Origin: an uncultured Croceitalea sp.
GTDB taxonomy: Bacteria > Bacteroidota > Bacteroidia > Flavobacteriales > Flavobacteriaceae
NCBI GenBank assembly: GCA_947503285.1
Contig: CANNDD010000001.1
Coordinates: 310,001-374,000, forward strand
Length of the DNA stretch: 64,000 nucleotides
Direction of reading: 5' to 3'
This document shows, one piece after another, positions 16,433 through 34,038 of the stretch. Made by a program: the position numbers and the translations under genes. The notes under the pieces were generated by a model. It had not been told where the DNA came from. It saw nothing but the letters and a program-made list of their open reading frames with translations, and searched no databases. Every line of letters starts with the position of its first letter. The stretch's first letter is position 1.

Positions 16433-16813
16433 GTTAGCTTATATAAATTTAAAGATTTGCACTCCTTTCATGACGGGAATCAAATAGTAGTCCTACAACC
16501 AAGATTTCTTTAAACACCTCACTAACAAATTTATCAAAATTAATGAGGAAGAAGTACGATAATAAGATCTTTGAACCTCTTATAATCACATGGCTGCTAC
16601 AATGCTTTGAAAATACCCTTACTTTCGCAACACTATCCTTACTTCCAGAAATCATTGCCCCATTATAATTCCCTTATCATATAAATTAGAGCACTATATA
16701 GAGTTTGATAACACACTAATTATTATGAAGAAAATGTGTTCCTAGCAGAACTGACAATTATCATGTTTTCTTTCATCAATTGCATATAGTTTTGATGTCA
16801 TATTAAAATAGGC
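16433..16813. other. intergenic region between pfkA and hemN
   Basis: AT-rich spacer holding the divergent promoters. The hemN-proximal part contains an Fnr-type dyad at 16752-16763 and a -7 box at 16787-16794. A 68-codon minus-strand ORF inside it (16449-16655) shows no recognisable features and was not accepted. Confidence 0.7.
16752..16794 (+). promoter_or_regulatory. Fnr-type dyad and -7 box of the hemN-usp promoter
   Basis: The dyad TGACAATTATCA (16752-16763) fits TGAYnnnnRTCA. The -7 box TAGTTTTG (16787-16794) begins 24 nt after the last dyad base, placing the dyad centre near -41 relative to the predicted start. The hemN ATG follows at 16814. The geometry matches four other sites in the window. 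Confidence 0.75.
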
Positions 16814-18172
16814 ATGTGCAATTTAACCAACAAATACAATGTTCCAGGACCCAGATACACCAGTTATCCGACGGTACCTTATTGGGACATCGATAGTTTT
16901 TCAGCCAAAAAATGGCGTCTTAATGTTAAAAGCAGTTTTGACCAAAGTAAAGAAGAAGGGATAAGCCTTTATATACACTTACCCTTTTGCGAGCGTATGT
17001 GCACTTTTTGCGGTTGCCATAAACGCATTACCAAAAGACATGAGGTCGAAACGCCCTATATTATTGCTGTACTTAAAGAATGGGCCCTTTACCGTGACCT
17101 ATTAGGAAACAAGCCCACCATAAAAGAATTACATCTAGGGGGAGGTACACCAACGTTCTTTTCCCCTGAAAACCTCACAAAACTCATAAATGGAATCTTT
17201 AGCCTAGCAAACAAGGCCGTGGACACTACCCTAAGTTTTGAAGGACATCCGAACAATACCACCAAGGCCCATTTACAGGCATTGTTTGATGTTGGGTTTA
17301 GAAGGGTCTGTTTTGGCGTACAAGATTATAACAAAACCGTTCAACGAGCCATCAATAGGGTACAACCCGTTAAAAACGTGAGTAATGTCACCCAATGGGC
17401 AAGGGAAATCGGGTATGCCTCAATTGGCCATGATATCATTTACGGTCTACCCTTTCAAACCTTGGAAAACGTAAAAAACACCTTGGCCAAAACCAATGAG
17501 CTTAGACCAGACCGATTGGCCTTCTATAGCTATGCACACGTACCTTGGTTAAAAGGAAATGGACAGCGAGGCTATCGTGATGAAGATTTACCTTCGGCAG
17601 AAAATAAGAAATTGCAGTATGAAATCGGTAAAAAGCTTTTGACCGTTTTAGGGTATCACGATATTGGTATGGATCACTTTGCCCTTGAAGGCGACTCCTT
17701 ATTTTCCGCAAGTCAAAACGGGCAACTACACCGTAATTTTATGGGTTACACAGCCTCAAAAACCCAATTGATGATAGGTTTGGGGGCGTCAAGTATAAGC
17801 GATAGCTGGAACGCCTTTGCCCAAAACGTTAAAAATATTGAAGAATACCAACATTTGGTGGATCATGACATCATTCCCGTTTATCGAGGACACGTGCTCA
17901 ATAAAGAGGATAAATTAATTCGCAAGCACATTTTAAATTTAATGTGCCAATTTGAAACCTCATGGGAGGTCGGGCAAACCAATTTTATTGATTTTCAACA
18001 TATTATAGACAATCTTACCGAACTTGAAAATGATGGCTTGGTCAAAGTCGGCAGCAATACCATTCGAGTGACGGAAAAAGGCAGACCGTTTATCAGAAAC
18101 ATCAGTATGGCCTTTGATCTAAAACTACAGAGAAAAAAACCGGAAACACGTTTATTTTCAATGACTGTATGA
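16814..18172 (+). CDS. hemN: oxygen-independent coproporphyrinogen III oxidase
   Basis: A 452-residue radical-SAM enzyme that decarboxylates two propionates of coproporphyrinogen III without O2, giving protoporphyrinogen IX for haem. The N-terminal motif PGPRYTSYPT is diagnostic for true HemN rather than HemW. The cluster cysteines are C59, C63 and C66, with C68 next to them in the family pattern. GGGTPTF is the SAM-binding glycine motif. An Fnr-type promoter precedes it, and a universal stress protein follows after 34 nt, so this is a low-oxygen operon that can supply haem for the cbb3 oxidase encoded nearby. Confidence 0.96.
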   Translation: MCNLTNKYNVPGPRYTSYPTVPYWDIDSFSAKKWRLNVKSSFDQSKEEGISLYIHLPFCERMCTFCGCHKRITKRHEVETPYIIAVLKEWALYRDLLGNKPTIKELHLGGGTPTFFSPENLTKLINGIFSLANKAVDTTLSFEGHPNNTTKAHLQALFDVGFRRVCFGVQDYNKTVQRAINRVQPVKNVSNVTQWAREIGYASIGHDIIYGLPFQTLENVKNTLAKTNELRPDRLAFYSYAHVPWLKGNGQRGYRDEDLPSAENKKLQYEIGKKLLTVLGYHDIGMDHFALEGDSLFSASQNGQLHRNFMGYTASKTQLMIGLGASSISDSWNAFAQNVKNIEEYQHLVDHDIIPVYRGHVLNKEDKLIRKHILNLMCQFETSWEVGQTNFIDFQHIIDNLTELENDGLVKVGSNTIRVTEKGRPFIRNISMAFDLKLQRKKPETRLFSMTV

Positions 18173-18206
18173 CCTACTTTTTTTATTAATCCAAAATCCC
18201 AAAAAG

Positions 18207-19028
18207 ATGAAAAGTATAATCGTTCCAATAGATTTCTCAAAACAATCTGAAATTGCGTTAAAAGTTGCTGCCAATCTCGCCAAAAAGAGCAACGCCGAAC
18301 TTCTTGTACTACACATGTTAGAGTTATCGCCTGCCATAATATCCAATACCGAATATATACCCCAAGTGCATATTGTGCACCTTCTGAAAGTAACGGAAGA
18401 CAGATTATCTAAATTCTTGAACAAACCCTATTTAAAAGGTATAAGTACTACTTCTATAATAAAACACTATAAGGTTTTTAGTGAAGTAAATGAGGTTGCA
18501 AAAAAACATGGGGCTGATTTAATTGTGATGGGATCAAATGGTACAGATGGCCTAGAGGAGATTTTCATAGGCTCCAACACCGAGCGGGTAGTGCGTAATG
18601 CCGAGATTCCTGTTTTAGTGGTCAAGGGGGAAGTTGATAGTTTTAAGGCTGAACGCTTTGTATTTGCCAGTGATTTTAAAGAAGAAAGTATCCCTGCGGC
18701 TAAAAAAGCCATTGCATTTGCAGATTTATTGGATGCTGAGCTTAAGTTGGTCTATATCAATACCCCTGCTGATGCATTTTTGAGTACTTCGGATGCTTAT
18801 GACCGTATCTCAAAATTTTTAAACCTTGCCCAACTTGGAAAAGAAGTCGATATCTATAACGATTACAACGTGGAAACCGGTATATTGAACTACGCTGAAA
18901 GTAATGCGGCCGACATGATAGGTATACCTACCCACGGTAGAAAAGGCTTATCACACTTTTTTATGGGTAGTATTGGGGAAGACATAGCCAATCATAGTAA
19001 GATTCCTGTGGTGACCTTCAAAATTTAA
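18207..19028 (+). CDS. universal stress protein (tandem UspA domains)
   Basis: The 273-residue protein has two UspA folds, about residues 1-140 and 145-273. The first carries MKSIIVPIDFSKQS at its start and a nucleotide-binding-type GSNGTDGLEEIFIGSNTERVVRNAEIPVLVV stretch (G-x2-G-x9-G-S). The second ends with THGRKGLSHFFMGSIGEDI, of the same type. Cytoplasmic. It lies 34 nt after hemN and should share its Fnr-type promoter, which agrees with the known induction of Usp proteins by oxygen limitation or growth arrest. Confidence 0.9.
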   Translation: MKSIIVPIDFSKQSEIALKVAANLAKKSNAELLVLHMLELSPAIISNTEYIPQVHIVHLLKVTEDRLSKFLNKPYLKGISTTSIIKHYKVFSEVNEVAKKHGADLIVMGSNGTDGLEEIFIGSNTERVVRNAEIPVLVVKGEVDSFKAERFVFASDFKEESIPAAKKAIAFADLLDAELKLVYINTPADAFLSTSDAYDRISKFLNLAQLGKEVDIYNDYNVETGILNYAESNAADMIGIPTHGRKGLSHFFMGSIGEDIANHSKIPVVTFKI

Positions 19029-19193
19029 CCAATACCTATTTTGGTATTCAAGAGGTTTTAAAAAAAGCACTGTTCTTAAACTTTTGTCATATTGGGCACG
19101 ATCAAATAATTTAAAGATTCAGAAGTTCAAGTTCTCGACTGCACTCGAAATGACATTATGGAAAACTTTTATAAAACTGCTTTCTTTTAACGA

Positions 19194-20591
19194 TCAAGAA
19201 AGTAATTTCATGTGATAGGGATCCCAATCCACCGGTCTGTTTTTAAAATAGCTTTCGTTGGCCAAAAGTGCTGCGCCAGCGGCCCGCAAACCAAAAGCAG
19301 GGTCTTGCACCACTTTTCCTTTGGTTCGTATGGCATTAAAAAAGTTATGAAAATGGTCGTAATGCCCCCCTTTATAATCGTTTGGCGCCTGCCAAACCGT
19401 TGTACCCACATTCAAGCTTGAAGCTCTTGGCTCCAACGCTTCTTGGTTATAGCCTTTTCTGATTTTTTTCTGTGTTGCCTCGGTATATGCTATCATCGAA
19501 TACGAACTAGGTAGCATCCCTAATTTGGAACGTGTCAGCTTCACCTCATTTTGGCCTACCTCCATTTCCCCTTCTGTTCCGATTAATTTGAATCCGCCAC
19601 CACCTCCGTTACCTGCAATAAAATTGATTCGAAAAACCGCATTAAAAGCGGCGTGTGTTTTGGTCTTTGGATAGTCATATAGCGTTAAGGTCACATCGGG
19701 TACGTCACGGCCATCGTTCCAATACCGAAGACCTCCCGTGGTCATTGCCCTATTGGGGCCATATGAACCGATGATGTAATTCAAGGTGGAAAATGCATGA
19801 ACGAACAAATCTCCGGCGACACCTGTGCCGTAGTCCTGATAATTGCGCCATCTAAAAAAGCGTTTTGCCTCATAAGGTACGTTTGGCGCCTTACCCAAGA
19901 AGGTATCAAAATCTACTGTATCCATACTGGCATCAGGCGGAATCGGATATTGCCATGCCCCTTCGGCGGAGTACCGATCATTATACATGTCTAACATCAC
20001 AATCTCGCCAATGGCCCCTTCTTCATATAATTGTTTTGCCTTTTCATTGCCCAAAGATGACATCCCCTGACTACCCACTTGGCATATCTTGCCATAATTT
20101 TGTTGCGCCTTGATAATGGCCTGCCCTTCTTCGAATTTTTGCACCATGGGTTTTTCACAATACACGTGCTTGCCAGCCTTAAGTGCCTCAACGGTTATCT
20201 TTTGGTGCCAATGGTCGGGCGTTGCCACTATTACGGCATCAATATCTTTACGCTCTAAAATTTTACGATAGTCCCTTGTTACGAATATGGACCCTCCCCA
20301 AAGTTCTTTTGCCCTTTCCAATCTTCCGGTATACAAATCACATGCCGCCACCAATTGAACACCGGCAATCTTTAGTGCCGATTGTGTATCATAGATTCCT
20401 TGAATACCCGTTCCGATCAGTGCCAAATTAATACGGTCGTTGGCAGTATATGATGTTGAACCCTGATACGTTCTTGAAAGCACAATTTTTTCATCGTACG
20501 AATTTGAAAAAATATAGGGTGTAGCCGTCAGCATGGCAGTACTTATAGTGGCCTTTTTCAAAAAAGACCTGCGGGAAGTATCCTTTTTCAT
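19194..20591 (-). CDS. Gfo/Idh/MocA-family oxidoreductase with Tat signal
   Basis: From the ATG at 20591 the protein has 465 residues and begins with a twin-arginine signal (TSRRSFLKKATIS). A Rossmann NAD(P)-binding domain follows, with LIGTGIQGIYDTQ and the EKP motif (VYCEKPMVQ), then a C-terminal alpha/beta dehydrogenase-type domain. The frame is open upstream to 20648, but that would bury the Tat motif. Members oxidise sugars or act as glycosidases with a bound cofactor. Export through Tat with NAD(P) already bound is typical for this Bacteroidota subgroup. The substrate is unknown. Confidence 0.88.
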   Translation of the reverse strand: MKKDTSRRSFLKKATISTAMLTATPYIFSNSYDEKIVLSRTYQGSTSYTANDRINLALIGTGIQGIYDTQSALKIAGVQLVAACDLYTGRLERAKELWGGSIFVTRDYRKILERKDIDAVIVATPDHWHQKITVEALKAGKHVYCEKPMVQKFEEGQAIIKAQQNYGKICQVGSQGMSSLGNEKAKQLYEEGAIGEIVMLDMYNDRYSAEGAWQYPIPPDASMDTVDFDTFLGKAPNVPYEAKRFFRWRNYQDYGTGVAGDLFVHAFSTLNYIIGSYGPNRAMTTGGLRYWNDGRDVPDVTLTLYDYPKTKTHAAFNAVFRINFIAGNGGGGGFKLIGTEGEMEVGQNEVKLTRSKLGMLPSSYSMIAYTEATQKKIRKGYNQEALEPRASSLNVGTTVWQAPNDYKGGHYDHFHNFFNAIRTKGKVVQDPAFGLRAAGAALLANESYFKNRPVDWDPYHMKLLS

Positions 20592-20682
20592 TTTGGAGGT
20601 TTTGATTAGACAGTAACGTCTTGAAGTTACGCTTTTCTTAGAAACCAACGCAAGATGATTTTTCTTTTACCTTTAAAACAAA

Positions 20683-20725
20683 TGACATATATCATGTTCT
20701 TTGACACAGTACCATGGTATCTTTA
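20683..20725 (+). promoter_or_regulatory. Fnr-type dyad and -7 box of the CBS-protein promoter
   Basis: The dyad TGACATATATCA (20683-20694) is followed, 24 nt after its last base, by a -7 box TATCTTTA (20718-20725), and then by the CBS gene start at 20753. The facing oxidoreductase gene has no -7 box at the equivalent minus-strand position, so the site most likely serves only the CBS gene. Confidence 0.72.
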
Positions 20726-20752
20726 AGATAAGAAACCTAAATACTAGCACTC

Positions 20753-21172
20753 ATGAAAAAACGAGTCCCCATAGCACGCATAATGACCAAAAATGTGGTC
20801 ACCTTAAGTACCAAAGATGATTTGCTAACTGCAGAAGAGCTATTTAAGAAAAATAGAATAAGACATATACCAGTGACCTCTGGTGATGAGGTCTTGGGCA
20901 TGCTAAGCTATACCGATTTAATGCGGATTAGTTTTGCAGACGCCATTGACGAACATGAACAAGATGTGGATACCATGGTCTATAATATGCTCAGGATTGA
21001 GCAGGTTATGGTCAAAGATGTTATTTGCGTTGCTCCTAATGCAACGATTCACGAAGTAGCGGCCTTCTTGGCACAGAAAGAATTTCATGCACTGCCAGTT
21101 GTCGATAATGACAAGCTTGTAGGTATTGTGACGACAACCGATTTAATCAATTATTTGTTAGCTCAATATTGA
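20753..21172 (+). CDS. CBS-domain protein
   Basis: The 139-residue protein consists only of a pair of CBS motifs (Bateman module): MTKNVVTLSTKDDLLTAEEL near residue 13 and VKDVICVAPNATIHEVAAFL near residue 83. Such modules bind adenine nucleotides and act as energy sensors. Both motifs end in the usual GMLSYTDLM / GIVTTTDLI pattern. Stand-alone and cytoplasmic; the target is unknown. An Fnr-type promoter site places it with the microaerobic genes. Confidence 0.9.
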   Translation: MKKRVPIARIMTKNVVTLSTKDDLLTAEELFKKNRIRHIPVTSGDEVLGMLSYTDLMRISFADAIDEHEQDVDTMVYNMLRIEQVMVKDVICVAPNATIHEVAAFLAQKEFHALPVVDNDKLVGIVTTTDLINYLLAQY

Positions 21173-21231
21173 CAGCGGTGATTGAGATTGTGATTTACTT
21201 CAGCTAAAGTGTATTATAGCTGAGTTCCATT

Positions 21232-21261
21232 AAGGGGAGTCTTGTTATCAAGATTCTCCTT
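21232..21261. terminator. bidirectional terminator between the CBS and DfsB-like genes
   Basis: A 13-bp stem with two mismatches (AAGGGGAGTCTTG against CAAGATTCTCCTT), a TTAT loop, and a T-run on the plus strand. It includes the stop codon of the convergent DfsB-like gene. Confidence 0.75.
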
Positions 21262-21754
21262 TTTTCATTCTTTTGATGAGTTTATATCCCCAATCGTAAT
21301 GACTTGACGTAGCAGAAATCAAATATGCTGCAAGAGAAGTTGAACCCGTCCATTTATACTTCTTTTTTGTGAAAAGTTCTTCATCAGAATATATTGCAAT
21401 TACTTTTTGGAGTCTATCAAATGACTTTTGAAGTTCATCTTTGATTTCAATTAAAGGGATGTCGGAATACAGCTTCTGAATTTGGGCATTCAATTCAGGG
21501 ACCGTCCTCCAGGTATGTCCTTCTTCTGGCATTGCGGGCTTTTCACCCTTCATACCTATTTCATGCCATTTGAGCATTAATAGATGCCAATGGTGTAAAT
21601 GCCCAAGAACATCACGAATGTTTCGGTTTAAGGTTCCTTCAGGAAAATCGCCGATCTGAGCCTCTTTGGAAAATGAATCTATATACCTAATCAGCTTATC
21701 ATAATTGGCTTTACCCAAAGTCAACAATTCTTCTTTTGATTTAGGTCTTGGCAT
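21248..21754 (-). CDS. ClbS/DfsB-family four-helix bundle protein
   Basis: A 168-residue helical protein that starts with MPRPKSKEELLTLGKANYDKL, the characteristic beginning of the ClbS/DfsB (DinB-like four-helix) family. ClbS itself protects cells from colibactin, but most family members are uncharacterised. HLHHWHLLMLKWHE gives a His-rich helix like the metal-site helix of DinB-like proteins. It starts 9 nt after the acyl-CoA hydrolase/transferase stop, so the two are probably one operon. Confidence 0.85.
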   Translation of the reverse strand: MPRPKSKEELLTLGKANYDKLIRYIDSFSKEAQIGDFPEGTLNRNIRDVLGHLHHWHLLMLKWHEIGMKGEKPAMPEEGHTWRTVPELNAQIQKLYSDIPLIEIKDELQKSFDRLQKVIAIYSDEELFTKKKYKWTGSTSLAAYLISATSSHYDWGYKLIKRMKKGES

Positions 21755-21763
21755 GACATTAAA

Positions 21764-23038
21764 TTATTTACGGCCATTAAAACGTTCATATGCCGCTTTG
21801 CCCAAGGTCTCTTGATGGTCAGGATGGGCTATTGAAATGAGTGCCTGGGCCCTTTGTTGCAAGCTTTTTCCAAACAAATTGACCACACCAAACTCCGTGG
21901 CCACATAATGTACATGGGCCCTAGTTGTGGTCACCCCGGCTCCTGTTTTTAAGAACGGGGCAATTTTTGAAACTCCTTTTTTAGTCGTTGAAGACATTGC
22001 AAAGATAGGTTTGCCGCCATTTGAAAGCGAAGCCCCACGAATAAAGTCCATCTGGCCGCCAACACCGGAAAATTGATAACTGCCAATGGTATCGGCACAT
22101 ACTTGACCGGTCAAATCAATCTCTATGGCACTGTTAATGGCCGTTACTTTCGGATTTCTTCGAATTCTGGCCGTATCATTGGTATAGGCAGCATCACGAA
22201 AATCGCAGATAGGGTTGTCGTCAATGAAATCATACAACTTTCGCGAACCTACCGCAAAGCAACTCACAATTTTCCCTCGTTTTACAGCTTTTTCCTTTCC
22301 GGTAATAACACCTTTCTCCAATAACGACAATACCCCGTCAGAAAACATTTCAGTATGGATACCAAGATCTTTATGATTGTTCAAATTCGCCAGTACGGCA
22401 TCAGGGATACTACCGATACCCATTTGTAAAGTGGCACCATCTTCTATAAGTGAAGCCACATGTTGACCAATGCGATGCTCAATATCTGAAATTGTCCCTG
22501 GATTATGTTCATGTATGGGGCGATCAACTTCTATGGCACACTCAATCTCATCAATATGTACAATACCGGTACCATGGGTTCTTGGTACTGACGGATTTAT
22601 CTGTACCACTATTTTTTTGGCTGTTCGAACCGCTGGAAGTGCCACATCAACAGAAACGCCCAAAGAGCAGAAACCATGCTTATCTGGTGGTGAGACCTGA
22701 ACAAAGGCAACATCTATGGGCAGAATGTCCCTTTTGAACAATAAGTGAATTTCACTCAAAAAAATGGGTATGTAATCCCCATTAGGCGTATTGACCAATT
22801 TACGCACGTTGCCCCCAACAAAACAGGAATTCAAATGAAAGGTTTTGTTGTAGGGCTCTTGGGTGTATTTTGCGTCACCCTCGGTATGGATTGAAACAAT
22901 TTCAACACGTTTCAACTCATTGTGCCTATTACAAAGTCCATCAATAAGTTCATTAGGGGTCATTGCGGCACCTTGAAAAAAAATACGATCACCTGATTTG
23001 ACCACTTTTACGGCTTCTTCAACACTTACTATTCTCAT
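21764..23038 (-). CDS. acetyl-CoA hydrolase/transferase family protein
   Basis: A 424-residue CoA transferase of the acetyl-CoA hydrolase/4-hydroxybutyrate CoA-transferase family. The oxyanion-type motif MGIGSIPDAVLANL and the catalytic glutamate region HTEMFSDG are visible. The C-terminal half contains QFSGVGGQMDFIRGA, typical of the second domain. It transfers CoA between acetyl-CoA and a short carboxylate such as propionate, butyrate or 4-hydroxybutyrate, or hydrolyses it. It starts 39 nt after the SafE-like gene at the end of the cbb3 cluster, so a shared transcript is possible. Confidence 0.9.
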   Translation of the reverse strand: MRIVSVEEAVKVVKSGDRIFFQGAAMTPNELIDGLCNRHNELKRVEIVSIHTEGDAKYTQEPYNKTFHLNSCFVGGNVRKLVNTPNGDYIPIFLSEIHLLFKRDILPIDVAFVQVSPPDKHGFCSLGVSVDVALPAVRTAKKIVVQINPSVPRTHGTGIVHIDEIECAIEVDRPIHEHNPGTISDIEHRIGQHVASLIEDGATLQMGIGSIPDAVLANLNNHKDLGIHTEMFSDGVLSLLEKGVITGKEKAVKRGKIVSCFAVGSRKLYDFIDDNPICDFRDAAYTNDTARIRRNPKVTAINSAIEIDLTGQVCADTIGSYQFSGVGGQMDFIRGASLSNGGKPIFAMSSTTKKGVSKIAPFLKTGAGVTTTRAHVHYVATEFGVVNLFGKSLQQRAQALISIAHPDHQETLGKAAYERFNGRK

Positions 23039-23077
23039 AATCGGTATACGTTTTGCCTGTTTATATCCTCTAATATA

Positions 23078-23785
23078 CTAATGGCATTCCGATTCACTTG
23101 ATACCACCTCTGTATTGACAGGTACTTTTGGTGAAACATACGGAATACCCAATCCAAGTCCCCTAAAAATAAAAAGTGCGCCGATCAACACTACCAAAAC
23201 CGGAATCATTTTTTGCGCCATACGTTTGGCGCCACCTTTCAAAAGACTACTGAACAATACCGCAGAGGTCATTAATGGTACGGTTCCCAAACCAAACAAC
23301 ATCATATATAAGCTGCCCAGCCAAGGGTTGCCCAATGCTACTGCCCCCAAAAGGGCCATATAGACCAGCCCGCACGGAAGAAATCCATTCAAAAAACCAA
23401 TAGTCAAAAAGGTATCGGGCGTTCGCTTTTTAAGTTCTTTTCCCAATCTTGACTTTACTTTTACCAAAAGGCCATAAATGGGTTTCGTAATACTGTATTT
23501 CTTAAGGTGCCTGCTTGGCAGTATGACCAAAAGAATCATGATTCCGCCTATAATGATAGACAGTTTCTGTTGCATACCAAAGAGGTACAGCCCTTTACCT
23601 ACATAACCGAATAGCAAACCCAAAATAGCATAAGAAAGCATTCTGCCAAAGTGGTATACAAAGAGTTGAAAGAGCTTTTTTGGTGCGTTTGTACGATCTA
23701 GTGGCAGCATAAAGGCTATCGGTCCGCACATACCCAAGCAGTGTAAACTTCCTAAAAGTCCTAAAACAAGCGCGGTGATTTGCAT
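23078..23785 (-). CDS. sulfite exporter TauE/SafE-like membrane protein of the cbb3 cluster
   Basis: A 235-residue polytopic inner-membrane protein with about six helices. It starts MQITALVLGLLGSLHCLGMCGPI; the CLGMCGP cysteine pair in helix 1 is characteristic of the DsbD_2/SafE-like family found in cbb3 oxidase operons. A role in copper or haem delivery to the oxidase is likely from that context, but not shown. Basic loop residues are near the middle. It lies downstream of ccoH in the same direction. Confidence 0.8.
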   Translation of the reverse strand: MQITALVLGLLGSLHCLGMCGPIAFMLPLDRTNAPKKLFQLFVYHFGRMLSYAILGLLFGYVGKGLYLFGMQQKLSIIIGGIMILLVILPSRHLKKYSITKPIYGLLVKVKSRLGKELKKRTPDTFLTIGFLNGFLPCGLVYMALLGAVALGNPWLGSLYMMLFGLGTVPLMTSAVLFSSLLKGGAKRMAQKMIPVLVVLIGALFIFRGLGLGIPYVSPKVPVNTEVVSSESECH

Positions 23786-25859: not shown

Positions 25860-26813
25860 TTAGTTCATGACGACCGTGGTCGAATCGGAAACCTGCTCTA
25901 CTGGAGCCTCTTCTCCTGATTCTACCGGTTCTGGTGCGTTGGGGTCAACCCATACATCACCTTCAGGTGCTTTCGGATTGGCAGGTGTCGTACCCTGAAA
26001 TTGCAATACATAACTTGCTACCTGAGCCATTTCAATTGGTTTTAGACTTTGTTTCCAAGCCACCATCCCTTTACCATCGCGACCCCCTTCTGAAATTGTA
26101 TTAAAGACATTTTTGATACCCCCGCCCAAAATCCAGTTGGCATCCGTTAGGTTAGGTCCGATTCCGCCACCACCATCTGCCATATGGCAAACCACGCAAT
26201 TGGTCGTGAAAATGGCCTTACCGGCATTTAGATCAGAAACGTCGGTCAGCAGTTCTACCGTATTGACGTCTACCAAGTTCTTTGCAGTCTTTTTATATTC
26301 TTCGATGGCTATTTTGGCCTCAGCGACCTGTTGGTCGTATTCCTCAGCCTGGGTATAGTCATCAGTGATATGAAAACGGACCAAATACACCAACCCAAAA
26401 AGGATGGTGGCATAGAACATATAAACCCACCATGGTGGCAGTACGTTATCCAATTCACGTATGCCATCATAATTATGGTCTAGAATTATCTCTCCTTCTT
26501 CTTCAATTTTTTTGGTACGGGTCAATTTAGCATACATGGCCTTGCCCCATTTCCATTCTGACTTTTTGTTTTTCTCTGCCAGATAACGTTCTTGCGCCTC
26601 TGGTGAGAGGATTTTGAACATTACCGTTTCTATGGCATTTAAAATCAATTCAATAGCAATCAATAACAACAACACGAGTAACATAAAGACTTGAGTCATT
26701 GGGTATTTGATGATTGCGGGCTGTACCCCTGAATCAATGAAGTATTCCATAAGTCCGTAGACCAAGAAGAACAATACTGGGATACGAATCCACCATGGTG
26801 CTTTAGTAAACAT
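25860..26813 (-). CDS. ccoP: cbb3 oxidase subunit CcoP, monohaem form
   Basis: The 317-residue protein has two N-terminal membrane helices, a charged linker, a FixP/CcoP N-terminal helix region (VLPPWWVYMFYATILFGLVYL) and one cytochrome c domain with CVVCH near residue 203. Proteobacterial CcoP carries two c-type haems; only one CXXCH exists here. The long acidic C-terminal tail has no further motif. It accepts electrons for the CcoNO core. It lies in the order ccoS-NO-Q-P-G-H. Confidence 0.92.
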   Translation of the reverse strand: MFTKAPWWIRIPVLFFLVYGLMEYFIDSGVQPAIIKYPMTQVFMLLVLLLLIAIELILNAIETVMFKILSPEAQERYLAEKNKKSEWKWGKAMYAKLTRTKKIEEEGEIILDHNYDGIRELDNVLPPWWVYMFYATILFGLVYLVRFHITDDYTQAEEYDQQVAEAKIAIEEYKKTAKNLVDVNTVELLTDVSDLNAGKAIFTTNCVVCHMADGGGGIGPNLTDANWILGGGIKNVFNTISEGGRDGKGMVAWKQSLKPIEMAQVASYVLQFQGTTPANPKAPEGDVWVDPNAPEPVESGEEAPVEQVSDSTTVVMN

Positions 26814-26826
26814 AGTCTTAGTTATT

Positions 26827-27003
26827 TTATTGGTTGTCGTTATCTAAAGGCAATTCGCCCATTTCTTTTATATGTGATTTACTAGCCGTGAACACCCACC
26901 AAAAAAGCAGGGCAAAGAACACGAAGAATAGCAATAGTGATATCATGGGATAGGTTGCTATTCCATCGATACTTTCCATATGGTTTTTAACAAATTTCAA
27001 CAT
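26827..27003 (-). CDS. ccoQ: cbb3 oxidase small subunit CcoQ/FixQ
   Basis: A 58-codon ORF with a short N-terminus, one membrane helix (SLLLFFVFFALLFWWVF, about residues 22-40) and a polar tail, exactly between ccoNO and ccoP. That is the standard FixQ position and shape. The stop is 13 nt before ccoP. CcoQ stabilises the interaction of CcoP with the core. Confidence 0.85.
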   Translation of the reverse strand: MLKFVKNHMESIDGIATYPMISLLLFFVFFALLFWWVFTASKSHIKEMGELPLDNDNQ

Positions 27004-27131
27004 CGTTTTATAGATTTTAGACCGCTACGCTCTTAGATATCAGATGTTAGACTAAGTTCTTTACGGTTTACTGTTTTATTAAAAATTTTATCAAGAAGCT
27101 TTGTATATTAACTTGCCCCTTGTCTAATATC

Positions 27132-29342
27132 TCAATTCTCACTTCTATTATCAGACAGCAAACCATCTGAATCTTTTACTTTAATATCAGTACCCAATCG
27201 TTGCAAGTATGCAATCAGCGAAACGATTTCACGGTCACGCATTTCAACAAATTCCCCACCATTTTCTTGTGCATACTTTTTATCGGCCTCGTATGTTTTC
27301 GCAAACTCGGGATCGCTGTACAAGTTCTTTTCAATCTGCTCGGCCTGTTGTGCCATGGCTTGTTGTGCATTTGAAATATCTTCATCAGTATAGGGTACAC
27401 CCAAGCTTACCATCGCCTGCATTTTGCTTTCAACATTGCTGCGGTCATGTACATTTTTGACCAGCCATTGGTACGCTGGCATTATAGACCCCGAAGATGT
27501 GCTCTGTGGATCGTACATATGATTCAGGTGCCAGTTATCGGAATATTTGCTCCCAATACGAAGCAGGTCAGGGCCGGTTCGCTTACTGCCCCATAAGAAT
27601 GGATGATCATACACGAACTCACCCGCTTTGGCATACTCGCCATACCGCTCTACTTCACTTCTGAACGGACGAATCATTTGGGAGTGACAACCCACACAAC
27701 CTTCTCGGATATAGAGATCGCGCCCTTCCAGTTCAAGTGGAGTATATGGTTTGACACTGGTAATGGTCGGTATATTCGATTTCACCAAAATAGTGGGCAC
27801 TATCTGTATAATACCACCTATCAAAATAGCAACCGTAGCCAATACTGTTAACTGTACCGGTTTTCTTTCTAGCCAGGTATGGAAGGTTTCGCCAGCGACC
27901 CTTCTTTTTGAGACCTGTGTCAAGGCGGGTGCCTCTGCCAATTCATCTTGAACGGCACTACCTTTTCTTATGGTTACGATCACGTTATAGACCATAATCA
28001 ACATCCCGACAATATAAAGACTACCACCGATAGCCCGCATCCAGTACATCGGGATGATTTGTTGTACAGTCTCTAAAAAGTTACCATATACCAACGTTCC
28101 ATCAGGGTTGAACTCTTTCCACATCAATGCCTGTGTAAATCCAGCAACATACATGGGCAATGCATATAAAATGATTCCCAAAGTACCTATCCAGAAATGC
28201 AGGTTGGCCAATCCTTTGGAGTATAAAGTGGTCTTCCACATTTTCGGTACGAGGTAATAAATCATACCAAAGGTCAAGAAGCCGTTCCATGCCAAGGCGC
28301 CAACATGAACGTGGGCAATGATCCAGTCACTAAAGTGGGCAATGGCATTTACATTTTTGAGCGATAGCATCGGCCCTTCAAAGGTTGCCATACCGTAACC
28401 GGTAATGGCCACTACCATAAATTTCAAAGTTGCATCAGAACGAACTTTGTCCCACACCCCTCTCAAAGTCAATAATCCATTGATCATACCACCCCACGAG
28501 GGTGCAATCAACATGATAGAGAACACAACCCCAAGATTCTGTGCCCAGTCTGGCAGCGAAGAATACAATAGGTGATGCGGACCCGCCCAGATATAAATAA
28601 AAATCAAAGACCAGAAGTGAACTATCGACAGTCGGTACGAGTATACCGGGCGATTTGCGGCTTTGGGTACAAAATAGTACATCAAGCCTAAAAATGGCGT
28701 CGTCAAGAAAAATGCTACCGCATTATGACCATACCACCACTGCACTAGGGCATCTTGCACCCCGGCATAGACCGAGTAACTTTTTAATGCTGCAACGGGC
28801 AGCTCCAAACTATTAAAAATATGAAGTACGGCAACGGTCACGAAAGTCGCCAAGTAAAACCAAATGGCAACATATAAGTGACGTTGGCGTCTTTTTAAAA
28901 TCGTACCGATCATATTCCACCCGAAGACCACCCAAACAAGGGCAATAGCAATATCAATGGGCCATTCCAATTCGGCGTATTCTTTTGAGGTGGTGTAACC
29001 CAAAGGCAATGTTATTGCCGCGGCCACAATAATCAGCTGCCAACCCCAGAAATTGATGTTACTCAAAACATCGTTGAACATTCTTGCTTTCAACAATCGC
29101 TGTAACGAGTAGTAAACACCTGCAAAAATGGCATTACCTACGAAAGCGAAAATAACGGCATTGGTATGTAGTGGTCGCAAACGCCCAAAACTCAACCATG
29201 AGATACCATCGGTCAAGTTCGGAAACAGAAACATAAAGGCCAACAATAGCCCAACCACCATCCCTACAACGCCCCAAAGCATAGTGGCATAAAGAAACTT
29301 TTGTACGATTTTGTTATCGTATTGAAATTGCTGTACTTCCAT
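27132..29342 (-). CDS. ccoN: cbb3 cytochrome c oxidase, fused CcoN-CcoO
   Basis: A 736-residue fusion. Residues 1 to about 480 are the haem-copper catalytic subunit CcoN with about twelve helices. Its conserved His motifs include LHTNAVIF, WYGHNAVAFF (CuB/active-site region) and HVHVGALAWNG (haem ligands). The rest is the monohaem subunit CcoO, with a membrane anchor and CVGCH near residue 547. The enzyme reduces O2 to water at high affinity and pumps protons. Fusion of N and O is usual in Bacteroidota. It starts 2 nt after the ccoS stop. Confidence 0.97.
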   Translation of the reverse strand: MEVQQFQYDNKIVQKFLYATMLWGVVGMVVGLLLAFMFLFPNLTDGISWLSFGRLRPLHTNAVIFAFVGNAIFAGVYYSLQRLLKARMFNDVLSNINFWGWQLIIVAAAITLPLGYTTSKEYAELEWPIDIAIALVWVVFGWNMIGTILKRRQRHLYVAIWFYLATFVTVAVLHIFNSLELPVAALKSYSVYAGVQDALVQWWYGHNAVAFFLTTPFLGLMYYFVPKAANRPVYSYRLSIVHFWSLIFIYIWAGPHHLLYSSLPDWAQNLGVVFSIMLIAPSWGGMINGLLTLRGVWDKVRSDATLKFMVVAITGYGMATFEGPMLSLKNVNAIAHFSDWIIAHVHVGALAWNGFLTFGMIYYLVPKMWKTTLYSKGLANLHFWIGTLGIILYALPMYVAGFTQALMWKEFNPDGTLVYGNFLETVQQIIPMYWMRAIGGSLYIVGMLIMVYNVIVTIRKGSAVQDELAEAPALTQVSKRRVAGETFHTWLERKPVQLTVLATVAILIGGIIQIVPTILVKSNIPTITSVKPYTPLELEGRDLYIREGCVGCHSQMIRPFRSEVERYGEYAKAGEFVYDHPFLWGSKRTGPDLLRIGSKYSDNWHLNHMYDPQSTSSGSIMPAYQWLVKNVHDRSNVESKMQAMVSLGVPYTDEDISNAQQAMAQQAEQIEKNLYSDPEFAKTYEADKKYAQENGGEFVEMRDREIVSLIAYLQRLGTDIKVKDSDGLLSDNRSEN

Positions 29343-29344
29343 AA

Positions 29345-29536
29345 TTATTTAGTTTGACTTTTACTTTGGTTGTTTTTTTCTGATGTGGTCTCTACAAGCT
29401 CATCTTCAAAGAGCATTCGTACCGAAGGGGTATACGCATCGTCGTATTGTCCTTTCTTTACTGAAAGCACAAAAGCGACAAAAAAGACCAAAGCAACACA
29501 TATACTGATGGCCAGTAACACATAGATTACACTCAT
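29345..29536 (-). CDS. ccoS: cbb3 oxidase maturation protein CcoS
   Basis: The 63-residue single-helix protein MSVIYVLLAISICVALVFFVAF followed by a cytosolic SVKKGQYDD segment is the CcoS signature. CcoS is required to insert haem and copper cofactors into CcoN. Here it is the first gene of the structural operon instead of following ccoI. It begins about 50 nt from the Fnr-type dyad at 29587 and is coupled to ccoNO (2-nt gap). Confidence 0.93.
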   Translation of the reverse strand: MSVIYVLLAISICVALVFFVAFVLSVKKGQYDDAYTPSVRMLFEDELVETTSEKNNQSKSQTK

Positions 29537-29555
29537 ACCTACCTGAATTTGAGGG

Positions 29556-29598
29556 TAAATTTAAATCGATGATATAGCACAAAAAATGACATTTATCA
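29556..29598 (-). promoter_or_regulatory. Fnr-type dyad and -7 box of the ccoS-NOQPGH promoter
   Basis: Read on the minus strand, the dyad TGATAAATGTCA (29587-29598) is followed by a -7 box TAAATTTA (29556-29563) whose first base is 24 nt from the last dyad base. It controls the start of the oxidase operon. The dyad lies just beyond the doxX-like stop codon. Confidence 0.78.
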
Positions 29599-29602
29599 GC
29601 TT

Positions 29603-30001
29603 TTATCTATAATTCATTTTTTTTCTGTTCTCTCTAAAAAGGATGACCAAAGCACCCACAATAATGATATTTTTGCCAATGTACTGACCCAATAATGTGG
29701 GCACCAGTGGGGCCATTTCAAATGATTGTGCAGGAAAAAAAAGCAAGGGCGAAAACGTACAGACCATATGGGCAAGTGCAATGAGCACTACTTGTTTTCG
29801 ATACATATTAAAAATCAATGACAGCCCTATACCTACCTCTAAAATGGCCAGTAATACTAGGGCCAATTGATTGGTAACCACGCCAAAAGTAAGCTGGTCA
29901 ATGGTATTCTTGGCCAGTTCTTCTGCCGGACTCAAACCTGGAAAAAACTTTAAAGCACCAAACCATACATATACCAAACCTATGGTCACACATAATATCA
30001 T
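29603..30001 (-). CDS. DoxX-like small membrane protein
   Basis: A 132-residue protein with four predicted membrane helices and the WFGALKFFPGLSPAEELA motif after helix 1, characteristic of DoxX/DUF417-like quinone- or redox-linked membrane proteins. It lies 20 nt downstream of ccoI, so the two are probably one transcript driven from the divergent Fnr-type site. A TAG stop upstream in the same frame excludes a much longer N-terminus. The biochemical role is unknown. Confidence 0.75.
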   Translation of the reverse strand: MILCVTIGLVYVWFGALKFFPGLSPAEELAKNTIDQLTFGVVTNQLALVLLAILEVGIGLSLIFNMYRKQVVLIALAHMVCTFSPLLFFPAQSFEMAPLVPTLLGQYIGKNIIIVGALVILFRENRKKMNYR

Positions 30002-30021
30002 TGTATTGCTGATCCTATTCT

Positions 30022-32412
30022 TTATCTCTCTTTTTGACTTCTCAATTTTCTACCCAAATAATTACTCGCGAGCGTTGTAAAAACGACTATGCTTATAGAA
30101 CTCAATGGCATCAAAATTGCCGCAATCACGGGTTTTAACTGCCCTGTTACCGCGAAATACAAACCGATGACATTGTAACATAGTGATAGTAAAAAACTGA
30201 TCTTGATTACCTTTATCGATTGCTTCGACAGCTTTAGAAAATTGCCGAGTTGGGTCAGTTTTGAAGCATCTAAAATGGCGTCACAGGCTGGGGAGAACAC
30301 GTTGATATTCTCAGAAATGGCGATACCCACATCGCTTTGCGCCAAAGCTCCCGCATCGTTCAGTCCATCACCTACCATGAGCACCTTATTTTTTGATTGG
30401 AGCTCTTTGACAAAATAAAGTTTGTCTTCAGGTTTTTGATTGAACAACAGTGGGGTACCGAACGGCACCAATTCTTCCAAAGTGTTTTTTTCCCCTTCGT
30501 TATCGCCAGATATCACTGCAAGTGTATAACCCCCTGCCATTTGTTCAAACAATTTGGATACGCCATCGCGATATTTGTTCTTGAAAACAAATCGCCCCTT
30601 ATAGTTGTCATCAGCACTTACATGGACCGAAGTATCCAAGGAACGTGAATCAACCTTTTGCCCAATAAAATTCGCAGAACCAGCCTTTATCGAATGTTCA
30701 TCTACACGGCCCTGCACCCCTTTGCCCGTCTCTTCTTCAAAAGCGTCCAAGGTTTCAATCTCTTGGCTTTTTAAAATACCATACAAAGAGCGACTCAACG
30801 GATGGTTAGATGCCCGCAGGGTATTCTTGAGCAATGACACTTCTTGCTCGGTCAATTCCATACCTTCATAAAAAATGGTGTTTTCAGTGGCAGAGGTCAG
30901 GGTGCCTGTTTTATCGAAAAGGGCCATCTCAACCTGAGCCAATCGCTCTATCGTATTCGTATCCTTTAAGTAAAATTGATGTTTACCAAAAATGCGCAGT
31001 ATGTTCCCCAAGGTGAAAGGTGCCGCCAAGGCAATGGCACAGGGGCATGCAATAATCAAAACCGCCGTAAAAACGTTCATCGCCTTACTGGCATCCACTA
31101 CCAACCAAAAGGCCGCCGCCAAAAAGGCTATCGTCAACACCGCTATGGTGAACCGCTTACCAATACGGTCGGTAATGGTTTGAAATTGGGATACCTTATT
31201 TTTTGAAAATGCGGCATTGCTCCACAGTTGGGTAAGGTAACTTTGTGATACCGATTTTAAGGCCTCTACTTCGAGCACACCACCCTTTTGTTTGCCCCCT
31301 GCAAAGAGTTTATCACCAGAGGATTTAAAAACTACCTGTGATTCACCGGTCACGAAACTGTAATCGATTTGGGCACTACCAGAAATTAAGACGCTATCAA
31401 CGGGTAGTATTTCTTGATTACGAATCAACAATCGATCACCTGCCTTTACCTCATAAACCTGAATGCTATCTTCTTCTTTGTCACCATTCAGTTTCGTCAC
31501 CGCAATGGGGAAATAAGATTTGAAATCTCGTTCAAATGAAAGGAATCCGTAAGTCTTTTGTTGAAAAAAGCGCCCTACCAACAAAAAGAACACCAAACCT
31601 GTCAGGCTATCAAAAAAACCGGAACCCAAATCAAAGAGGATATCAACAGTGCTACGCAGGAATAAGGTCAATATACCCAAAGCAATGGGCACATCAATAT
31701 TGAGTAATCTAGAGCGTAATACTTTATAGGCCATTATAAAATAATCACGGGCAGCATAAAAGACGACGGGTAATGAAAAGGCAAACATTAACCATCGAAA
31801 CACATGCTTATACTGCTCTAACCAGAACTCCTCAACCTCAAAATATTCGGGAAACGAAAACAACATTACATTGCCAAAGGCGAAACCCGCTACCCCCAAT
31901 TTATATATCAAACCGCGGTTGACCGCATTATTCTTTTTAGAATAGTCTTCTAAAGATATATGGGGCTCGTAACCAATTCTAGCCAATAATACCACGAGTT
32001 CTTTTAACGACAAGTTTTTACTTGAATACGTGATCCGTACTTTTTTCTTGGGAAAATCAACCTGCGAACTCTTTACATCTTGATGCAACCTTTTTAAATT
32101 CTCAAGCACCCAAATACATGAACTGCAATGAATATGTGGGATATTCAAGTGTACCACTTGAACACCTTCTTCATCAAACTCTAGAAGTTTTGAAACAATG
32201 GCAGCGTTCTCGAGGTAGTCAAACTTGTCTAAATTTTCTTCTGGTGTTTTTCCTGCTGCCTTCTCAATATCGTAGTAGTAAGAAAGGTCGTTGGTGGTAA
32301 AAATCTCATAGACCGTTTTACAACCATTACAACAGAACTCTTTTTCTGCAAAAAGTACTGTATTACCTGAACAAGCATCACCGCAATGATAACATGCTTT
32401 ATCTACTGACAT
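30022..32412 (-). CDS. ccoI: copper P1B-type ATPase of cbb3 assembly
   Basis: An approximately 796-residue copper-translocating ATPase (FixI/CcoI). It has an N-terminal cysteine-rich FixI domain (CYHCGDAC, CCNGCKTVYEIF), a heavy-metal-associated domain with HCSSC, the copper-translocation CPC motif (IIACPCAIALA), the phosphorylation DKTGT, NHPLSRS and GDGLNDAGALAQSD. It supplies copper for CuB of CcoN. In-frame ATGs exist at 32439, 32421 and 32412. The -7 box overlaps the first, so I prefer 32412. It is divergent from a crp/fnr gene. Confidence 0.95.
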   Translation of the reverse strand: MSVDKACYHCGDACSGNTVLFAEKEFCCNGCKTVYEIFTTNDLSYYYDIEKAAGKTPEENLDKFDYLENAAIVSKLLEFDEEGVQVVHLNIPHIHCSSCIWVLENLKRLHQDVKSSQVDFPKKKVRITYSSKNLSLKELVVLLARIGYEPHISLEDYSKKNNAVNRGLIYKLGVAGFAFGNVMLFSFPEYFEVEEFWLEQYKHVFRWLMFAFSLPVVFYAARDYFIMAYKVLRSRLLNIDVPIALGILTLFLRSTVDILFDLGSGFFDSLTGLVFFLLVGRFFQQKTYGFLSFERDFKSYFPIAVTKLNGDKEEDSIQVYEVKAGDRLLIRNQEILPVDSVLISGSAQIDYSFVTGESQVVFKSSGDKLFAGGKQKGGVLEVEALKSVSQSYLTQLWSNAAFSKNKVSQFQTITDRIGKRFTIAVLTIAFLAAAFWLVVDASKAMNVFTAVLIIACPCAIALAAPFTLGNILRIFGKHQFYLKDTNTIERLAQVEMALFDKTGTLTSATENTIFYEGMELTEQEVSLLKNTLRASNHPLSRSLYGILKSQEIETLDAFEEETGKGVQGRVDEHSIKAGSANFIGQKVDSRSLDTSVHVSADDNYKGRFVFKNKYRDGVSKLFEQMAGGYTLAVISGDNEGEKNTLEELVPFGTPLLFNQKPEDKLYFVKELQSKNKVLMVGDGLNDAGALAQSDVGIAISENINVFSPACDAILDASKLTQLGNFLKLSKQSIKVIKISFLLSLCYNVIGLYFAVTGQLKPVIAAILMPLSSISIVVFTTLASNYLGRKLRSQKER

Positions 32413-32460
32413 TTGCTTCATACCGATAACAAAGATCATGTATCGACCTTACCCAAAACA

Positions 32461-32503
32461 TGACATATGTCAGCTTTTGAAAAATGGTGTTCCAATACCT
32501 TTG
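32461..32503. promoter_or_regulatory. shared divergent Fnr-type dyad between ccoI and crp/fnr
   Basis: The perfect dyad TGACATATGTCA (32461-32472) serves both directions. On the plus strand the box TACCTTTG (32496-32503) begins 24 nt after it, upstream of the crp/fnr gene. On the minus strand GATCTTTG (32430-32437), one mismatch from TAnnTTTG, begins 24 nt after it, upstream of ccoI. Confidence 0.8.
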
Positions 32504-32515
32504 TAACACAACGAT

Positions 32516-33211
32516 ATGAATTTGAATACCATGACTAAATGTACCGAACTTAAAGTACGCCAACTTAAAGATTTTAGGTCATTGGATGAGGCTTCAAGAA
32601 CACAAATGCTCAAAGGTTCAGAAGCAATTTCAATACCTAAAGGAGCTATTATTTTTGAAGAAAACCAACAACTTAAAAAATTGTACTGTATTCGTAAGGG
32701 CGCTTGTAAATTCAGTACCATAAATCATGGTGGACAAGAACAAATCCTGCGATTTTTAGGCGAAGGTGAAGTTATGGGAAAAAGGTCTTTAATCACCAAT
32801 AATGGGGCTAAAGTATCAGCTACGGCACTAACAAACACGCTATTATGCTGTATCGATAAAAATGAGGTCGTCAAAAACCTAAAGACCAATACCGTTTTTT
32901 GCAATGACCTCATGAAGGCCTTTGTTGACGACATGAACACAAACGAGTATACGCGTTCCATCTTTTACTCATGCAAAAGCATTAAAAGCAGGCTAGCAAG
33001 CCTTTTACTTTATTTAGGTGAAAAGTTTGGAATCAATTCTGAGGGCAAACTACTTCTCAGGATCAGACGGGAAGATATGGCAGCAGTTTTAGGAACCTCA
33101 TCAGAATACATTATCAATCTTTTAAAATATTTCAGGACTAAAAAGTTGATTAAAATCGTAAAACGGGAAATCTATATTATATCAAAATCAGAACTTAAAA
33201 AGATTAACTGA
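32516..33211 (+). CDS. Crp/Fnr-family regulator, divergent from ccoI
   Basis: The 231-residue protein has a cyclic-nucleotide-binding-type beta-barrel (about residues 25-150) and a C-terminal winged helix with RREDMAAVLGTSSEYIINLLKYF. Compared with the next gene it keeps C9, C58 and the CC pair of LLCCID but has lost the second N-terminal cysteine (KCTEL against RCENC). In the recognition helix Asn replaces the Arg of the paralogue. It is therefore probably a divergent copy with altered sensing or DNA specificity. Its own promoter carries the Fnr-type dyad. It is separated by 71 nt from the second copy. Confidence 0.88.
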   Translation: MNLNTMTKCTELKVRQLKDFRSLDEASRTQMLKGSEAISIPKGAIIFEENQQLKKLYCIRKGACKFSTINHGGQEQILRFLGEGEVMGKRSLITNNGAKVSATALTNTLLCCIDKNEVVKNLKTNTVFCNDLMKAFVDDMNTNEYTRSIFYSCKSIKSRLASLLLYLGEKFGINSEGKLLLRIRREDMAAVLGTSSEYIINLLKYFRTKKLIKIVKREIYIISKSELKKIN

Positions 33212-33282
33212 ATACCTAAAAAATTACAGCTTTTTACTATTGTTTAAATCTTAAATTTACATAGTCAGGTAATACTTGTTTT

Positions 33283-33975
33283 ATGGAAAATACTAGGTGT
33301 GAAAACTGCATCGTTCGTCAATTCAACTCATTAAGGGCAATGAGCAAAGAAGAATTGAAAAGGGTTTCTGATTCAAAAACGACCAAAACCGTCAAAAAGG
33401 GGGAACCACTTTTTGAAGAAGGTGACAAACTAAACGGTGTTTATTGTGTTCGTAACGGTGTTTCCAAATTATCAAAATTAAGTCCAAATGGAAAGGACCA
33501 AATCGTAAAATTGGCCACTAGGGGTGAGGTCATGGGACAACGTGCCGTCATTGCTGAAGAAACTTCCAACCTTTCGGCAGTGGCCGTCAGTGATATGGAG
33601 GTTTGTTTTATCCCTAAAGACAGTATTGCCACTACACTTCAAAAAAATCCAAATTTCACTATGGAAGTATTACGCCATATGGCACATGACCTCAAAGAGG
33701 CCGATGATGTTATTGTAAACATGTCGCAAAAAACGGTCAAGCAACGTATTGCCGAAGCTTTTTTGTATCTGAAAAATAATTTCGGGGAAAATAATGAAGG
33801 GTTTCTGGCGTTGACCCTATCGCGTGAAGATATCGCCAATGTGGTAGGAACGGCAACCGAATCAGCGATTCGAATTATTTCAGAGTTCAAGAAAAAGGGG
33901 CTCATCCATACTTCGGGAAAACAAATTGGAATCAAAGATGAACGAAAACTCAAAGACCTGGCCCAGGGATTTTAA
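33283..33975 (+). CDS. Fnr-like regulator with four cysteines
   Basis: A 230-residue Crp/Fnr protein. It has exactly four cysteines: C6 and C9 (RCENC), C55 (VYCVRNG) and C108 (MEVCFIP). C6, C9 and C108 align with E. coli Fnr C20, C23 and C122; the place of C29 is empty, and C55 is extra. The recognition helix is TESAIRI, with Glu and Arg placed like the base-reading residues of Fnr (ETISR). It is the best candidate to bind the TGAYnnnnRTCA sites in the window and sense low oxygen through an Fe-S cluster; that is inference. Its own upstream region lacks the dyad. Confidence 0.88.
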   Translation: MENTRCENCIVRQFNSLRAMSKEELKRVSDSKTTKTVKKGEPLFEEGDKLNGVYCVRNGVSKLSKLSPNGKDQIVKLATRGEVMGQRAVIAEETSNLSAVAVSDMEVCFIPKDSIATTLQKNPNFTMEVLRHMAHDLKEADDVIVNMSQKTVKQRIAEAFLYLKNNFGENNEGFLALTLSREDIANVVGTATESAIRIISEFKKKGLIHTSGKQIGIKDERKLKDLAQGF

Positions 33976-33995
33976 CGTTGTTCCTTCTCAAAACC

Positions 33996-34038
33996 TGATA
34001 ATTATCATAGTATTGCTATTGGGGCGACCCTAATTTTA
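33996..34038 (+). promoter_or_regulatory. Fnr-type dyad and -7 box of the second usp promoter
   Basis: The dyad TGATAATTATCA (33996-34007) is followed by a -7 box TAATTTTA (34031-34038) that begins 24 nt after it. The usp ATG is at 34062. The dyad begins 21 nt after the stop of the four-cysteine Fnr-like gene. Confidence 0.75.

Follow-up and report, generated by a model that had tools for sequence, protein, structure and literature searches.

The 64,000-nucleotide stretch considered here (the window; positions 310,001 to 374,000 of contig CANNDD010000001.1, assembly GCA_947503285.1, from an uncultured Croceitalea sp. of the Flavobacteriaceae) carries genes for oxygen-independent haem synthesis, a cbb3 oxidase, a copper ATPase and universal stress proteins alongside two genes of the Crp/Fnr family, raising the question of whether these genes form one regulon and, if so, which protein reads their promoters and from what position. 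A preliminary description had proposed a low-oxygen regulon under a class II activator of the Fnr type, and the placement of the operator at -41.5, the gene set, its conservation and the linkage of an Fnr-like gene (33283) all support that proposal. We consider it highly probable that the cluster is a compact low-oxygen regulon in which the product of this gene, Fnr2, would bind the operator TGAYAWWTRTCA and act as a class II activator of the cluster genes. This assignment is built on what is observed in the sequences: the motif, its exact spacing, the restriction of exact sites to the cluster, their conservation and the linkage to the regulator.

Dyads and -7 boxes at a fixed spacing

In what follows, the composite is the dyad TGAYnnnnRTCA, 23 nucleotides (nt) and the -7 box TAnnTTTR, and the spacer is the number of nt that separate the box from the final base of the dyad. 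All five dyads named in the preliminary description were found, starting at 16752, 20683, 29587, 32461 and 33996, and its claim that a box begins 24 nt past the last dyad base (23 nt between the two) is true for 5/5. The sixth promoter that it listed, that of ccoI, reads the 32461 dyad in reverse and does carry a box with a single mismatch (GATCTTTG at 32430-32437); TAnnTTTR, the mark of a Bacteroidota primary-sigma promoter, is otherwise matched in 5/6 promoters. The window's five composites are intergenic and lie 12-27 nt ahead of the next start (the ccoS start was read by eye). The promoter elements are:

16752..16763, + strand: dyad ahead of hemN-usp (motif scan)
16787..16794, + strand: hemN-usp -7 box TAGTTTTG, spacer 23 (sequence)
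20683..20694, + strand: dyad ahead of the CBS-domain gene (motif scan)
20718..20725, + strand: CBS-gene -7 box TATCTTTA, spacer 23 (sequence)
29587..29598, - strand: dyad ahead of the ccoS-ccoNO-ccoP-ccoG-ccoH operon (motif scan)
29556..29563, - strand: cco operon -7 box TAAATTTA, spacer 23 (sequence)
32461..32472, no single strand: dyad common to ccoI (-) and crp1 (+), spacer 23 to both boxes (motif scan)
32430..32437, - strand: ccoI -7 box GATCTTTG, with a non-T first base conserved in kind
32496..32503, + strand: crp1 -7 box TACCTTTG, spacer 23 (sequence)
33252..33259, + strand: probable fnr2 -7 box TAAATTTA, without a dyad
33996..34007, + strand: dyad ahead of usp (motif scan)
34031..34038, + strand: usp -7 box TAATTTTA, spacer 23 (sequence)

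The window holds nine TGAYnnnnRTCA dyads against 4.4 expected by shuffling (nine or more in 5/100 shuffles), so the dyad alone is weak evidence and it is the geometry that counts. At the four further dyads, absent from the preliminary description (16471, 44129, 52407 and 62218), no composite with fewer than two mismatches was found. The whole genome (4,341,352 bases, 4.34 Mb) was scanned for the composite, as had been suggested, with the motif read backward as control, giving 6 exact matches at spacer 23 and 0 backward controls. Five of the six lie within the window; the sixth (C3:84160) falls inside a 262-codon open reading frame (ORF) and is probably a chance match. When the spacer was left free (dyad-N(8..38)-TANNTTTR), there were 35 matches genome-wide versus 11 backward controls, 6 of them at spacer 23 and 29 spread over the other 30 spacers. 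With 0.014 composites expected at spacer 23 per 64-kb window and 5 seen (Poisson 5e-12), the exact spacing is, as previously argued, unlikely by chance.

Allowing one mismatch gave 28 genome matches versus 18 backward controls, which is near background and leaves little excess beyond the window cluster; further regulon members elsewhere in the genome were rejected on this ground. Of the 21 one-mismatch matches outside the window, 16 lie inside ORFs of at least 100 amino acids (aa) and 5 are intergenic (L033, L034, L038, L048 and L051), each of these with an imperfect dyad or an imperfect box. A tighter motif, TGAYAWWTRTCA, is common to all five window sites and occurs at 13 genome sites versus 3 controls; followed by T in most promoters, it is a better motif than TGAYnnnnRTCA. 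At none of the eight TGAYAWWTRTCA sites elsewhere in the genome does a -7 box stand at 23 on either side, so that the regulon, judged by exact sites, is the window cluster alone.

The position of these dyads relative to the transcription start can be placed through Flavobacterium psychrophilum, a member of the same family, for which the -7 box TAnnTTTG is reported at -12 to -5 from mapped starts (PMC9723704). Combined with that box position, spacer 23 puts the dyad at -47 to -36, with its centre at -41.5, the class II place; the centre near -41 of the preliminary description is thus borne out, using starts mapped in F. psychrophilum rather than the organism's own. Class II activation through contact with RNA polymerase is predicted from this placement.

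The spacing was then compared across relatives, using the upstream regions of 101 loci (the window, 20 fetched stretches and 80 named genomes), counted as distinct regions and leaving out regions that are short and genes with a match beginning past residue 30. The box stands at 23 in 80/81 regions upstream of ccoNO, 90/95 of usp (paralogues included), 8/8 of hemN (window included) and 2/3 of the CBS gene. Among control genes it stands at 23 in none (ccoP 0/79, ccoG 0/77, ccoH 0/75, acoT 0/49), and the usp gene behind hemN has a dyad in 0/7 distinct upstream regions, the window included. Of 149 family genomes, 134 carry the refined dyad followed 8-38 nt later by a box, for 1150 matches in all versus 133 backward controls; among the 150 matches listed (14/149 genomes; one dyad with two boxes counts as two), the spacer is 23 in 95, and the next commonest is 9, with 8. 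The exact refined composite was found in 27/30 family genomes and in 25/266 other genomes of the phylum (1 backward control in 296), and its validity across the phylum was rejected on the latter count. Within the family the spacing appears nearly absolute, and this, found by comparison, is one of the new parts. As a separate observation, genome G041 has two near-identical composite promoters about 1.1 kb apart (L114:4801-4812 and 5894-5905), which suggests a tandem duplication that took the operator along.

The aligned promoters also show fine structure around the dyad. Rows were chosen for having a box, so the fixed letters of the box are there by selection, and the first base of the ccoI box and the flanking bases are not. 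T immediately follows the dyad in every promoter of ccoI (84), ccoN (77) and usp (86), and C precedes it in 83-91 percent of them, which makes the operator directional; further along, at about -33 to -30, the ccoI and ccoN promoters have a T-run. The first base of the ccoI box is never T in 84 distinct promoters (C 66, G 10, A 8), so its mismatch is a conserved weak box and not a random one. A strict TA-box stands at 23 on the ccoI side in 0/85, and the TAnnTTTR word that comes straight behind the dyad in 36/85 is part of the T-run; the ccoI-side counts at 23 given below use the looser xAnnTTTG.

Cluster genes and the candidate regulator

The genes served by these promoters and the two Crp/Fnr genes are:

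16814..18172, + strand: hemN, oxygen-independent coproporphyrinogen III oxidase (TIGR00538 above cut-off)
18207..19028, + strand: universal stress protein, probably the second gene of the hemN transcript (PF00582)
20753..21172, + strand: two-CBS-domain protein (PF00571, two stretches)
27132..29342, - strand: fused ccoN-ccoO, cbb3 oxidase subunits I/II (TIGR00780, TIGR00781 and NF011053 above cut-off)
29345..29536, - strand: ccoS-like small ORF, 63 aa, first gene of the operon (by eye; named from position and length only)
30022..32439 (listed start), - strand: ccoI-type copper P-type ATPase (PF00122, PF12156; TIGR01511 below its cut-off)
32516..33211, + strand: crp1, diverged paralogue in the Crp/Fnr family, with Asn in place of the recognition Arg and without CxxC
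33283..33975, + strand: fnr2, Fnr-like regulator with Cys6, Cys9, Cys55 and Cys108; proposed activator
34062..34973, + strand: universal stress protein (PF00582)

The listed start of ccoI (32439) is upstream of its own -7 box, so the real start is probably 32421 or 32412 (by eye), either of which would probably leave a very short leader.

The preliminary description had pointed to the product of 33283-33975 as the regulator, and this is likely, as fnr2 alone among the genome's three proteins over the HTH_Crp_2 cut-off has both the helix and the cysteines. It scores above cut-off for PF00027, PF13545 and PF00325, giving a cNMP-like beta-roll and a Crp-type helix-turn-helix (HTH). The Glu and Arg of the FNR recognition helix serve the TGA half-site; the same pair in fnr2 (Glu193 and Arg197) is kept in 113/114 rows, the other being a gap, and the residue before Arg197 is Ile, against Ser in FNR. 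The gene is firmly linked to the cluster, with ccoI divergently upstream of fnr2 in 79/80 named loci and crp1 in between in 5. Of the remaining candidates, the third protein over the cut-off (C2:46525) was set aside for its different helix, SRVVISR; three genome matches fall under the cut-off, one of them GntR-like by eye.

The signal that fnr2 senses is the point at which a competing reading holds up best. In this alternative, which we regard as possible yet clearly the less probable, the regulon is real and fnr2 senses thiol redox, nitric oxide, haem or a small ligand rather than oxygen via an iron-sulfur (Fe-S) cluster. Alignment with A. fischeri FNR over residues 5-227 matches Cys6, Cys9 and Cys108 to FNR cysteines, and all four cysteines, Cys55 included, are invariant in 114/114 fnr2 rows (redundant rows included), as would suit a cluster; the third N-terminal FNR cysteine, however, is Asn15 in fnr2, invariant in 22 aligned orthologues, so an Fe-S cluster is a guess and, with the extra invariant Cys55, the protein is better called Fnr-like than FNR proper. 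Within NCBIfam, fnr2 scores best against the Fnr model NF008365, though at 113.7 bits it stays below the cut-off of 228, and a composite ahead of a cytochrome c-nosZ operon in at least one relative (L100) would fit nitric oxide sensing too. The predicted structure (mean predicted local distance difference test score 81.9; residues 1-8, with Cys6, poorly predicted) matches the P. gingivalis Crp/Fnr protein 2gau best, then CRP-type proteins, with A. fischeri FNR from rank 10.

In the mechanism that we favor, a fall in oxygen would lead Fnr2 to dimerize and bind TGAYAWWTRTCA, with an Fe-S cluster probably carried on Cys6, Cys9 and Cys108, perhaps also Cys55. As the dyad centre is fixed at -41.5, bound Fnr2 would touch the RNA polymerase that holds the flavobacterial -7 box and turn on hemN, the cbb3 oxidase operon, the ccoI copper pump, two usp genes and the CBS protein, the 32461 dyad presumably serving two divergent promoters, ccoI and crp1.

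Receiver-Crp proteins and the shared ccoI/fnr dyad

The composite also occurs in family genomes that lack a close fnr2, and these encode a protein some 350 aa long. Domain scans of four of these proteins, taken from fetched stretches, gave receiver, cyclic-nucleotide-binding and Crp HTH domains; these receiver-Crp response regulators all lie near usp genes:

L099:13743-14801
L107:17338-18408
L108:5841-6896
L096:1939-2988

Their neighbor is a PAS histidine kinase in both loci scanned (L099 and L096), Asp52 is kept in 19/19 full-length rows, and the recognition helix is mostly of the GIATESLIR type, versus GTATESAIR in fnr2. At least three composite matches were found in 117/126 genomes with fnr2 or receiver-Crp versus 2/23 with neither (Fisher 1.6e-16, kinship ignored), so that 21/23 of the latter have fewer than three. 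The test pools spacers 8-38, its thresholds (fnr2 E <= 1e-60, response regulator E <= 1e-50) were set after the matches had been viewed, eight genomes with weaker fnr2 matches count as lacking fnr2, and 14/23 of the "neither" genomes are small (2.2 Mb or less), with 2 of the nine larger ones having at least three matches. Mean composite matches are 7.30 with fnr2 only (53 genomes), 7.61 with the response regulator only (31), 12.07 with both (42) and 0.87 with neither (23), with backward controls at 0.6-1.1. The share of spacer 23 among the listed matches is 36/61, 24/39 and 35/50 for fnr2 only, response regulator only and both, respectively.

These means bear on a second alternative, that in family members with both proteins the receiver-Crp response regulator, not Fnr, is the main activator of the same sites. 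Composites are as many with the response regulator alone as with fnr2 alone, and more numerous with both; we nevertheless hold this to be unlikely, and it is inapplicable to the window's genome, which has no receiver-Crp protein at E <= 1e-50 and whose three HTH_Crp_2 proteins (open frames of 223-236 aa) are all too short for a receiver domain.

The dyad shared by ccoI and the Crp/Fnr genes was compared in 112 distinct regions upstream of fnr2 orthologues, crp1 intervening in 7, the window's genome included. Among the 105 regions without crp1, xAnnTTTG stands at exactly 23 on the divergent ccoI side in 98. On the fnr side, TAnnTTT is placed at 23 in 68 and at 9 in 22; 13 regions have it at another distance or not at all, and 2 lack a dyad. 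The flank on the ccoI side is T in 90/90, and that on the fnr side is G in 64/68 of the spacer-23 cases, the reverse of the direction seen elsewhere. With a spacer of 9 the dyad would span -33 to -22 and overlie the core promoter, so self-repression is predicted there; the fnr promoter dyad thus appears to alternate between 23 and 9 nt placements, predicting activation or repression. On a quick fnr2 tree (52/107 forks open; weak support at many), the 23/9 state changes at least four times. Dyads with a box at 23 and an opposite-strand box at 9 were also seen at L100:9947-9958, L103:10756-10767 and L099:18461-18472, none of which has a divergent gene listed beyond the box at 9; in L100 the box at 23 points towards a cytochrome c gene and nosZ, and a cytochrome c gene with similar gene sizes behind lies at L103.

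On balance we lean, by a slight preference, towards a single rigid composite promoter in Flavobacteriaceae as the shared output of two sensors with closely similar recognition helices, a four-cysteine Fnr and a receiver-Crp protein with its PAS kinase, lineages keeping one, the other or both; the fnr dyad would have switched several times between -41.5 (predicted self-activation) and -27.5 (predicted self-repression), ccoI staying at -41.5.

It is very improbable that the dyads are read by crp1 instead of fnr2. The preliminary description had called the gene behind the 32461 dyad "crp/fnr", and its place in the Crp/Fnr family stands, but it is a diverged paralogue and not the likely regulator: although directly behind the shared dyad, crp1 has Asn for the recognition Arg in 8/8 rows (the window's own counted twice) and lacks Cys9 and with it the CxxC, and it is present in just 6/80 named loci, yet the ccoN and usp geometry is the same in nearly all. 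That AT-rich-core dyads stand near -7 boxes by chance or composition has next to no probability, since, for all that the dyad excess is modest, the spacer histogram of the 150 listed matches has one sharp peak, matches across the 149 genomes far exceed the backward controls and the composite is absent inside operons.

Several observations nonetheless count against Fnr2 as the activator. The composite is rare outside the family (25/266 genomes). Within the family it is present in 30/31 genomes with the response regulator alone, so fnr2 is not the sole owner of the motif there; no more than one composite match was found in each of five fnr2 genomes and in one response-regulator genome; and the third N-terminal FNR cysteine is missing. 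In the window's genome, a -7 box probably precedes fnr2, yet the gene lacks its own dyad, crp1 sitting between it and the shared dyad.

Two further features were noted in the window. The word CAGGTA occurs in short leaders just past the -7 box at 33266-33271 (fnr2) and 29540-29545 (ccoS), and in relatives, at narrow offsets, in 71/112 fnr, 44/72 ccoN, 25/79 ccoI, 0/80 usp and 0/8 hemN leaders; it is possibly a translation signal, the phylum being described as without Shine-Dalgarno sequences (PMC6847099). Between ccoI and ccoS, a 132-aa ORF (29603-30001, - strand; hydrophobic by eye) has no Pfam or NCBIfam match, and a relative of it is present in 16/80 named loci.

Comparison with known systems

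The system is of a known kind, and no such map for this family was found in the literature searched: among open-licence papers, no title or abstract opening describes this geometry or the two-sensor arrangement. Three things appear new, all by comparison only: a spacing that hardly varies, an autoregulatory site that alternates between placements, and one operator apparently used in common by two types of sensor. With few false positives, the exact composite (TGAYAWWTRTCA, 23 nt, TAnnTTTR) would let the Flavobacteriaceae low-oxygen regulon be read from sequence, the nos operon of at least one member included. It also offers a clean test of class II rigidity on the Bacteroidota RNA polymerase, and natural cases of two sensor types apparently using one operator and of an autoregulatory switch by a 14-bp site shift.

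At class II promoters of E. coli and A. fischeri FNR, the dyad is centred at -41.5. The system described here resembles these in its Fnr-fold protein, its TGAT-n4-ATCA core at -41.5 and its low-oxygen respiratory genes, and differs in its flavobacterial -7 box, in its outer bases, C ahead of the dyad and T behind it rather than flanks of the TT/AA type, in the missing third N-terminal cysteine and in an almost invariant spacer. Rhizobial FixK and FnrN are likewise Crp/Fnr activators of the cbb3 oxidase, with a kinase route parallel to the direct Fnr route as proposed here, whereas flavobacteria join the receiver domain and the Crp-type DNA-binding protein into a single response regulator.

The FNR box is given as TTGATnnnnATCAA in PMC1274295, which also reports the HcpR2 regulons of Bacteroides; these share a Bacteroidota Crp/Fnr regulator with a dyad, and differ in motif (GTAACnnnnGTTAC) and target (hcp). 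The MalR-like proteins of Flavobacteriales belong to the same family and order but are predicted carbon-supply sensors, and no such geometry is described for them in the part of PMC8510549 consulted. The study of F. psychrophilum, from whose main text the words Fnr and Crp are absent, reports that under oxygen limitation the cbb3 oxidase is strongly up and haem enzymes are up (PMC9723704), a low-oxygen response with the same cbb3 and haem genes and the same -7 box as found here.

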